A stretch of 64,000 nt of DNA from Onchidella celtica. Its lineage: Eukaryota; Mollusca; Gastropoda; Systellommatophora; Onchidiidae. The stretch is taken from positions 28,159,981 to 28,223,980 of the forward strand of contig OZ007579.1 in NCBI GenBank assembly GCA_963931925.1, written 5' to 3'. Shown here one piece after another: positions 17,146 to 61,570 of this stretch. Under the pieces are notes generated by a model. The model did no database searches. It saw only the letters and a list, made by a program, of their open reading frames with translations, and had not been told where the DNA came from. The position numbers and the translations under genes are program-made. How positions within the stretch are numbered: position 1 is the first letter of the stretch; the number at the start of each line of letters is the position of its first letter.

Positions 17146-17400
17146 GTAAGACTCGAGACACAATGCCGAGCTAGACGGACCATTCCTTCTTTCACTATGG
17201 GTCCATAACTTGCGCGCGGATAAACACGGTGAGTAATTAACTACTCACAGGGCTCTGTGGTACTAGTCTTTTTCGTTCAATTATGAAGGGGTATGGTGCG
17301 AATTGTTTGCATCGTTAACATGGATGATACGCGCGCAAGTCGACGGACGGAATTTGGCGATTTGAACTGTCTCGATATCTAGTGTCTCGGGTAAGACTAA
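17146..17400. mobile_element. inverted-repeat MITE, family M3 copy 1
   Basis: GTAAGACTCGAGACAC at the left and GTGTCTCGGGTAAGAC at the right are inverted partners. The interior shares GACGGACCATTCCTTC, CTTTTTCGTTCA and ATGATACGCGC with 61352-61570. Non-coding. Confidence 0.68.
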
Positions 17401-22198: not shown

Positions 22199-22613
22199 TG
22201 TTGAACGAGCTTGCTTTTAAGATGTAGGCCGATAACGATGATCGAGTCGGTGATGTGTTTACTACTCGCTCCGACCAAGGCCTTTTTGTGCAATCGCTGC
22301 ATTTTTCACACGCAGATCGTACGTGACAAGCTGGCCCTAGATCAGTGTTTCTCAAAGTGGGGCCTGGGACTTCACAATGGGGCGCGGGGATTTTTCATAG
22401 GAATCTTAATTTTAACAGATACACAAATCGAATCAAACAAATCTGCAGCCAGCATTAAGGACAAGGCTCCCACTGAAGCAAGAAACAAGTGAAACAACTT
22501 GAAAGGTTAAATCGAAACTGAATAGATCTATAGAAATATTTGAACAATCTTTTTGTTCATACTAACTTTGTTCGATCATGTTTGGGGCGCACGCTTTTTT
22601 GGGAAAATGAACT

Positions 22614-23220
22614 GCTCTTGTCCGCAGCTTCTGCTCCGCTATTTTTACGGACCACAACGTAAAACACTCTTTGCCTCTATATATACTTCTCCACAGTATC
22701 CGTTCCGCCCCACTTCTCACGGCTATAGGTAGAATGTGCATGATGTCACAGAGTGTTTTTGTTTTGTACTTCCGCCAAACAAGATGGCCGGTGGATCAGC
22801 TGATGAGTGTAACTTCGAGATGTGTCTAAGCGGTTAAAATGCCTGCTGGTTGCATTGCAGTTGACTGTAATGACAGGGGTGGAAAGGATGTATCCAAGCT
22901 GGTCAGATTCCCTACCATCCGTGTAAACAAGAGAAAGGAAGTGAAAGAATTGACCGACGTCTCCCAAATGCTTTACACGCGTGTCATTGTTTACTGCAGT
23001 GAACGTTTTTTAAAACTCACCGCCGATTGGTTCGCAACGCCTTAAGTGCTCACGGTGCAAATCACCTAACGAATCAAAATCAATTCCACCATCGCCATGG
23101 TGAAGCGTGGGTCCGGACAGACAAGATGGCGGATATGTGCATTCTACCTATAGAGGCAAAGAGAGTTTTTCATACGTCATTTTCCGTAAAACTAGTGTAA
23201 CGGACGCCGTGGACAAGAGC
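22614..23220 (+). mobile_element. THAP-bearing DNA transposon relic with long TIRs
   Basis: The left end GCTCTTGTCCGCAGCTTC with CTATTTTTACGGACC and CTTTGCCTCTATA pairs with the right end (reverse complement GCTCTTGTCCACGGCGTCC, TAGTTTTACGGAAAATG, CTTTGCCTCTATAGG). The pairing resumes inward at GGTAGAATGTGCAT (from 22730) against ATGTGCATTCTACC (ending about 23149). Arms are about 80-100 bp, with a 40-base insertion or duplication on the left. Between them is a THAP-like frame (22839-23045). P-superfamily transposases carry an N-terminal THAP domain, so a P-like origin is inferred. At 607 bp it lacks a catalytic domain. Confidence 0.7.
22839..23045 (+). pseudogene. degenerate THAP zinc-finger domain fragment
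   Basis: The 68-codon frame opens MPAGCIAVDCNDRG, giving Cys5 and Cys10 in the C-x(2-4)-C spacing of a C2CH THAP finger, then VRFPTIRVNKRK, which fits the conserved F-P step. Near the end, YCSERFLKL aligns with the family's C-S-E-H-F, but His is replaced by Arg. The conserved tryptophan is not found between them. The zinc ligand set is therefore incomplete and the frame stops right after the domain. It is a transposon-derived relic rather than a host THAP gene. The DNA-binding role of the family is known; activity here is unlikely. Confidence 0.6.
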
Positions 23221-23703
23221 ACTGAAGTGTGGTGTGGGACAAAGAAGGTTGAGAAACACCGACAGAATGAAGTAAAACGAAATAGATGACATCACCAGCG
23301 CGGATGAAAAATTTCACACATTATTTGATTGAATCATATTGGATATGCTGTCAGACTGTCAGTCATTCATGATTAGTTACTGCGAGAAAGATTTGTGTGA
23401 CAATTCAGTTTATCTCGAGTTGTTAGCGTTGTCATGATAAATCACTGGGCACAGACGTGTACGATACGTTTTTACAACCGGGCATAGGAGGAATTTACCT
23501 GAAAATGATTTATTCCAAATTTGAAATTTAACTATTTGGAGTAACATTGTCTGAAAATTAGTTATTAAATCAGACACTGCAAAATTTATTACTTGAAAAC
23601 AGTGAACAGTTTGTTGAAAATTACAGCAATATTGCAAGCTTCATATCAGAGCAAACTGTTCAATGTGTGTACATGAAAAACTGCATTGATCTGTCTTAGC
23701 GGT

Positions 23704-23811
23704 CTTGTCCACAGCATCCGCTCCGCTATTTTTACGGAAAATGACGTATGGAAAACTTTTTTTTGCCTCTATAGAGGTGAGGAGCGGAGCGGAACAGATG
23801 CTGTGGACAAG
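23704..23811. mobile_element. 108-bp palindromic MITE of the THAP family
   Basis: Starts CTTGTCCACAGCATCCGCTC and ends GAGCGGAACAGATGCTGTGG plus ACAAG. The left half (CTATTTTTACGGAAAATGAC, CTTTTTTTTGCCTCTATAG) closely matches the terminal repeat of the THAP element at 22614-23220. It looks like a minimal derivative made of two termini head to head. Its two overlapping open frames are shadows. Confidence 0.78.
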
Positions 23812-54839: not shown

Positions 54840-55435
54840 CAGAAGGAAAAAGTCCGTATGAGCTTTTCTTGATTTCATCTCCTTCCAAATCTCCGAAATA
54901 CCCCCCCCCCCCCCTCCCCGACAAGTTCATTACGATAATCTTTTTTTTTTTCAATCTCGCCTCCACTTTCCGAGCCACCCCCAGAAATGGGTCCAAGTAG
55001 TTTCCTATTCCCTCCCACAGACATGTCTCAAACGGACCCTTCACATCGATTGCCCCAGACCACTACCAGGTCATTAAAACAATAATACTCGATCTTTCAA
55101 GCATAAATGTTACAAAAATGCCGCTCGCTGACTCTGTCATGAAACAGGTTAGGGTATTGGCGTATCTGCAGCGGCCCATTTTTTTCGCCAAATATAGCAT
55201 GAAATTGTCGAAGAAATTTGCTCTTTGCTTTATTGGTTTAGGGGAAATATGGTTCTCAACGTGGGCGATATCGCCTTTTGTAGGGGGGGGGGGGGAGATT
55301 TTGACCTCCAGGGATGCGAAAACGAAGAAAAGGGCGACGGGGTGGGGGGGGGGCATTTAAGTCGGACGATGGGAGGTATTTAAGAGGTTTAGAAGGAGAC
55401 GAAACCAAGAAAATCTCATTCGGACTTTTTTTGGG
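54840..55435. repeat. foldback repeat with C-run/G-run arms
   Basis: 54847-54905 (AGTCCGTATGAGCTTTTC, TTTCATCTCCTTCCAAATC, then a C-run) is the inverted partner of 55368-55432 (GAGGTTTAGAAGGAGACG, AATCTCATTCGGACTTT). A second G-run lies at 55281-55293 and another at 55343-55351. Likely a ~590-bp foldback element. A diverged relative of its inner part may lie at 57885-58015. Confidence 0.55.
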
Positions 55436-55664
55436 TTGCAAATACATGACAGTCACTGACTTGTTGAACAGCACGTGTAGTTGGGTTTTGTGAACAGAAA
55501 AGTATATATTATATATTTTTTTAGTGCAATAATTTTAATAAATAATCCTATTCTCATAAATAAACTTTGAGAAAATGATTTGTCTGGAGTAAGAAATACC
55601 AGTATTCGAAACTGCCTAGACTTGTCCAAGAGAGCACACCTATGTCAATCCGACAAGTTTAGTG

Positions 55665-56183: not shown

Positions 56184-56290
56184 TCAGACACATCTCGAAG
56201 TTACACTCATCAGCTGATCCACCGGCCATCTTGTTTGGCGGAAGTACAAAACAAAAACTCTGTGACGTCATGCGCATTCTACCTATTAGG
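56184..56290 (-). mobile_element. fragment of the THAP transposon family
   Basis: The reverse complement is nearly identical to 22726-22830: GGTAGAATGCGCATGACGTC, CTTCCGCCAAACAAGATGGC and GATGAGTGTAACTTCGAG. It covers the element's leader just upstream of the THAP start codon, then diverges where the THAP ATG would follow. No terminal repeat is present. The 124-codon minus-strand frame 55954-56328 runs through it but shows no zinc-finger pattern. Confidence 0.7.
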
Positions 56291-61351: not shown

Positions 61352-61570
61352 TTTATCCGAGACTCAGAATACCCAGACGGACCATTCCTTCTCCCGCGAT
61401 ATGTCCACAAATTGGGCGCGTATAAATACGGTGAGTACTGCTCTTTTTCGTTCAGTTATGAAGTGGCGTGGTGCGAATTGTTACATTGTTGACATCGATG
61501 ATACGCGCAAATCGACGGACGGAATATGACGAATTGATCCGTCTCAGTGTCCTGTGTCGCGGGTTTTGTT
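61352..61570. mobile_element. MITE family M3, copy 2
   Basis: GACGGACCATTCCTTCTCCC, TCTTTTTCGTTCAGTTATGA, GATGATACGCGCAAATCGAC and CGACGGACGGAATATGACG match 17146-17400. Ends CCGAGACTCAGAAT and GTGTCCTGTGTCGCGG are eroded inverted partners. Confidence 0.65.

Follow-up and report, generated by a model that had tools for sequence, protein, structure and literature searches.

At positions 22,614 to 23,811 of a 64,000-nucleotide stretch of the Onchidella celtica genome (the window; contig OZ007579.1, 28,159,981 to 28,223,980), long inverted ends bracket a short open frame with THAP features, and a palindrome built of related sequence lies downstream. The locus raises the question of whether this is one P-like transposon whose own ends have given rise to a palindromic MITE, as the first-pass annotation proposed, or a composite of separate elements. 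We are almost certain that a non-autonomous ISL2EU MITE entered the central CTATAG of a separate palindromic element, duplicating 2 bp (AT) there. This answer draws on the nest itself, the element ends, the AT duplication and its target site, and a full-length ISL2EU copy that has two genes and shares the MITE's ends, each of which is demonstrated below.

A MITE nested in a palindromic element

The inverted ends around a 68-codon frame with Cys-x4-Cys, RFP and CSER (ATG at 22839, last codon ending at 23042) are present as originally described. The arms pair at 22613-22661 with 23173-23221 (49 nt, 76%), at 22661-22681 with 23149-23169 (21 nt, 95%) and, innermost, at 22723-22741 with 23135-23153 (19 nt, 89%). 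A search of the assembly (1.14 Gb, 43 contigs) with the 607 bases of 22614-23220 gave 5,426 first-look candidates, of which 40 places were scored in 43 rows. At the 39 scored places other than the query itself the match was restricted to about bases 105-551 of the 607, mostly 110-540, at 92-94% identity; the three additional rows comprised an 85% second piece beside a listed copy (one row) and the query's own arms (two). Bases 110-540 of the query correspond to about 22724-23153 of the window, that is, the repeat stops inside the inverted arms. Since the scored copies match the inner stretch without the arms, the genome-wide repeat is the inner part only.

This inner part is an ISL2EU-type MITE at 22727-23149 on the plus strand, about 423-424 bp long with terminal inverted repeats (TIRs) AGGTAGAATGTGCAT and ATGTGCATTCTACCT, as placed from the repeat boundaries and the located element ends. 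It belongs to an abundant family with the TIR AGGTAGAATGCGCAT and a decayed THAP exon inside. In 20 copies taken with 200-base flanks the ends TATAGGTAGAAT...ATTCTACCTATA recur, with substitutions in several, in surroundings that are mostly different; mean identity is 97.4% to a majority sequence built from these 20 copies and the window. The third, inverted fragment noted in the first-pass annotation was also borne out, at about 56186-56286 on the minus strand, as the 5′ end only of a second MITE copy (96% identity over 103 columns to the start of the inner element), with the fragment itself placed at 56186-56284. The family has the attributes by which we recognise a MITE, namely short length, many copies and ends in common with a full-length element. 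A literature search gave no paper that we recognised as describing it, which is no proof of its being unpublished.

The palindrome at 23704-23811 matches the outer arms with E values of 3e-18, 1e-10 and 8e-7 in a search within the window, and the likeness is therefore not due to chance. Arm A (22617-22681, plus strand) corresponds to palindrome positions 1-70 (79%), half B in reverse (22686-22728, minus strand) to positions 66-108 (81%) and arm A′, also in reverse (23148-23217, minus strand), to positions 1-71 (86%). When the MITE and one AT are removed, the joined flanks align with the palindrome along its full 108 bp at 83% and run through the join ungapped, the single gap lying elsewhere; keeping both AT copies, or parsing the element as TAGG...CCTA, opens a 2-base gap. 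The uninterrupted copy at 23704-23811, which is of A-B form, serves as an empty site. At another locus, L042, the palindromic element in A-B-A′ form (L042:1353-1977) has also been entered by an ISL2EU MITE, at a different position (GCT|AT|T, by eye); the window has the same A-B-A′ layout and the 23704 copy only A-B (by eye).

Because removal of the MITE and the AT leaves sequence that aligns along the whole palindrome, and because the L042 MITE sits elsewhere, the arms represent one element and the inner repeat another. The ‘long ends’ at 22617-22728 and 23148-23217 are a palindromic element of the 23704-23811 family with the MITE at its centre. The palindromic element came first and the MITE later. 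The first-pass annotation was thus right that the palindrome shares the arm sequence, but what remains after removal is like a complete palindromic element, so that the palindrome was not made from the ends of the THAP element.

Among 289 kb of fetched loci, and with two further copies of the window's own sequence excluded, the palindrome is matched at E 0.05 only in L042 and L053, the L053 piece lying about 1.2 kb from the MITE of that locus. No consistent target duplication for the palindromic element was seen by eye in the flanks of its two window copies, L042 and L053. The whole nest may in turn lie within a hAT-type element at 22343-23261 (CAGTGTTTCTCAA ... TTGAGAAACACCG, read by eye), for which the one match was exact over just 11 bp (E 0.7) and no target duplication was seen by eye.

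The target-site duplication

In the window the AT duplication occupies 22725-22726, preceded by T, and 23150-23151, followed by A, as placed from the palindrome join, a table of flanks and paralogous empty sites. The flank sample comprised 50 MITE-bearing places, namely 20 from the nucleotide search, 29 from a protein search with the THAP frame (150 places scored of 7,322 candidates) and the window, and was selected for its resemblance to the copy in the window. Seven places were dropped, five with ends that were not located and two with flanks duplicating another copy, leaving 43 that were oriented by THAP sense and parsed as AGG...CCT. Two of these, L046 and L047, come from one tandem array; L046-L049 (C1:56546771-56555980) are one MITE copy repeated in tandem every 2,006 bases.

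The adjoining 2-mers are identical in 35 of the 43 copies and in every such case are AT. The outer flanking pairs are T..A in 29 copies, T..T in eight, A..A in three, A..T in two and C..C in one. Twenty empty-site matches span the junction, of which 12 were aligned; set aside were five with L042 as the query and three with L001, the latter being to L042 and to the window stretch itself, as L001 and as L029. Eight of the 12 alignments are gapless at the join and cover five insertions (L001, L002, L025, L028 and L051). These are L051 with L002 (89% over 210 bp, 0 gaps), L001, which is the window copy, with the palindrome, L002 with L105, L025 with L052 and with window 55428-55500, and L028 with L031, window 61357-61562 and window 17173-17390. 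Three alignments (L028/L003, L051/L053 and L052/L025) are gapped at the join or one base away, and L052 against the window has no gap but differing bases at the join. The repeats that hold L002 and L051 are related, so that these two insertions may not be independent. At all five insertions the empty sites agree with an AT duplication of 2 bp, and not with the 8-bp duplication that had been predicted around copies.

The junctions can also be parsed as a 4-bp TATA duplication around GG...CC ends, which would place the element with a kind that duplicates four bases, such as Kolobok. The palindrome empty site fits this parse equally well and the adjoining 4-mers agree in 24 of the 43 copies, but the 2-mers agree in 35. 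Furthermore, L025 has TATA at its left junction and TATT at both of its empty sites, and therefore the terminal A belongs to the element and the duplication is AT; the full-length copy described below likewise lies between TATA and TATT. Kolobok elements duplicate TTAA, which is not what the flanks of the 43 copies show. We consider a TATA duplication very unlikely and retain the AT parse.

A full-length relative and the decayed THAP exon

Searching with a composed 94-residue THAP query (150 places scored of 6,304 candidates) found many places that hold open frames, and one THAP match, at C9:39429623, is followed 2.7 kb downstream by a match to PF13613. The copy at this place spans C9:39429493-39439194 (9,702 bp) and reads T-AT[AGGTAGAATGCCCAT...ATGCGCATTCTACCT]AT-T. 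It is the one full-length copy examined, read in pieces without 39430101-39431949 and 39433651-39435699. Its ends agree with those of the MITE at 28 of 29 bases (5′) and 17 of 17 (3′); the copy closes at 39439194 with ATATGCGCATTCTACCT, which in L115 stands directly before AT-T.

On one strand the C9 copy has Pfam matches to THAP (43.1 bits), HTH_Tnp_4 (51.5 bits) and DDE_Tnp_4 (87.7 bits), the last covering profile positions 1-69 of 158 in the fetched sequence. The copy is interrupted by a retrotransposon-like fragment, which in L111 is flanked by HTH_Tnp_4 and DDE_Tnp_4. From their common strand and order, the exons for THAP and for HTH/DDE probably belong to one gene. Opposite to these transposase domains, on the minus strand of L112, is a YqaJ match (74.9 bits), and L114 likely holds the first exon of this second gene (by eye).

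The same arrangement of a MITE end at the start and a THAP exon is found in L107, L108 and L109, while L110 has the exon without the MITE end; L107, L108 and L110 give Pfam THAP matches. Over the first 29 bases L108 is identical to the MITE majority sequence and L107 has one difference. The 5′ 360 bases of the C9 copy, comprising the 5′ end and THAP exon, gave 561 first-look candidates, and all 40 scored places (self included) match at 97-100%, 39 of them beginning at query base 1. The direct parent subfamily of the MITE was not found, the autonomous-type 5′ regions examined being about 68% identical to it beyond the ends. At 30 of the 150 PF13613 loci, taken with 1.5-kb flanks, and in eight upstream stretches, MITE sequence gave short chance matches only. 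One of the 30, L072, is about 90% identical to the C9 transposase and has its ends outside the stretch read, so that absence of the MITE near PF13613 loci is no proof that they are other families.

The 68-codon frame (22839-23042, plus strand) is a decayed THAP exon, a relic of transposase exon 1, with 40-50% identity over 44-50 residues to the THAP exons of L107-L109; a Pfam search with it gave no match at E up to 10. The frame is kept open from the ATG to the 3′ TIR in 15 of 20 MITE copies, which could speak for selection on a short THAP peptide acting as a repressor of transposition. However, when compared with random placement of the same changes, the frame has 40 synonymous substitutions (47 expected), 127 nonsynonymous (117 expected) and three stops (six expected, with three or fewer in 12% of 2,000 placements), and in the majority frame the conserved Trp and the Cys/His pair, both kept in the full-length exon, are missing (by eye). 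On the substitution counts we reject a function for the frame, a repressor peptide having a very slim chance of being correct; the frame shows no sign of purifying selection and is in neutral decay.

In the mechanism that we favour, an ISL2EU transposase recognising the common ends would have moved the MITE copies in trans by cut-and-paste, its THAP domain binding the DNA and its DDE domain providing cleavage. Internal deletion of a full-length relative would have produced the MITE, leaving the THAP frame as a passive remnant.

Placement among known families

According to passages of PMC4482050, the ISL2EU group (PHIS superfamily; 25 families, mean length about 4.8 kb) has among its common characteristics an AT duplication within A|AT|T, a transposase with THAP, HTH and DDE domains, a second gene with a YqaJ exonuclease domain and TIRs that usually begin with GG; part of PMC9179366 gives the same two-gene layout. 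The present element resembles this description in its AT duplication (35 of 43 copies, and the empty sites at five insertions), its TIRs, its YqaJ second gene and a putative THAP/HTH/DDE transposase, assembled from domain matches in the exons of one full-length locus. It differs from these published features in its flanks, which are mostly T|AT|A (29 of 43 copies, against two with A..T), in TIRs that begin AGG on the AT parse and in the 9.7-kb length, insert included, of the C9 copy. PIF/Harbinger, of the same superfamily, has a related DDE transposase with HTH, but the same passages give it a TWA duplication and a Myb/SANT second gene, in contrast to AT and YqaJ here (PMC4482050). We treat A|AT|T as a variable preference, take the AT duplication to be what defines the group, and file the element under ISL2EU, as a family with a variant target.

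The transposase of P elements carries a THAP domain at its N-terminus, and P elements make an 8-bp target duplication. The N-terminal THAP domain is the point of likeness to the element studied here, which differs in its catalytic domain, its second gene and the length of its duplication. P elements are indeed present in this genome, with 148 PF12017 P-element-type matches, many in long open frames and with groups sharing identical scores. In the 10 of these 148 loci that were examined, the MITE ends appear only as near-matches with four mismatches; each locus extends just 1.5 kb beyond the match in both directions, its own ends may lie outside, and this evidence is weak alone.

Derivation of the palindrome from the ends of a P-like THAP element would account for the adjoining THAP frame and common arm sequence and fits the presence of P elements here, but it is extremely unlikely, given that the scored copies of the repeat lack the arms, that removal of the MITE and an AT leaves sequence like a complete palindromic element and that the one full copy examined with the same ends is ISL2EU. 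We reject a P-element origin on the DDE_Tnp_4 and YqaJ matches between the same ends, where a P-type catalytic domain had been anticipated, together with the AT duplication. The first-pass annotation had itself named an unrelated transposase between the same ends as the observation that would overturn it, and the C9 copy is such a case. It correctly recognised a THAP-bearing DNA transposon relic, of which related copies occur genome-wide, and erred in assigning the relic to the P type. Our data confirm that the misreading lay in the grouping, the features being real and belonging to two separate mobile elements.

The site is ordinary genome debris, a relic of the known animal family ISL2EU. 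Its analysis corrects a likely P-like misannotation and illustrates that nested MITEs can pass for one element, while the pair of MITE and full-length copy with a T|AT|W target adds one more data point for the ISL2EU group. We give even chances to a broader view, in which the target of this ISL2EU lineage has moved from A|AT|T to T|AT|A with the AT duplication unchanged, so that it lends itself to mapping how PHIS transposases choose their targets, and in which a transposase exon in decay may be carried by MITEs of this lineage at thousands of sites (40 scored of 5,426 first-look candidates).

Separately, a 523-aa open frame with HTH_Tnp_4 occurs at 36 listed places with equal score, which suggests a recently active family. 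Inspection of one upstream stretch (L099) revealed no THAP. Three of these frames stand in tandem, at C16:42126368, 42132670 and 42138972.
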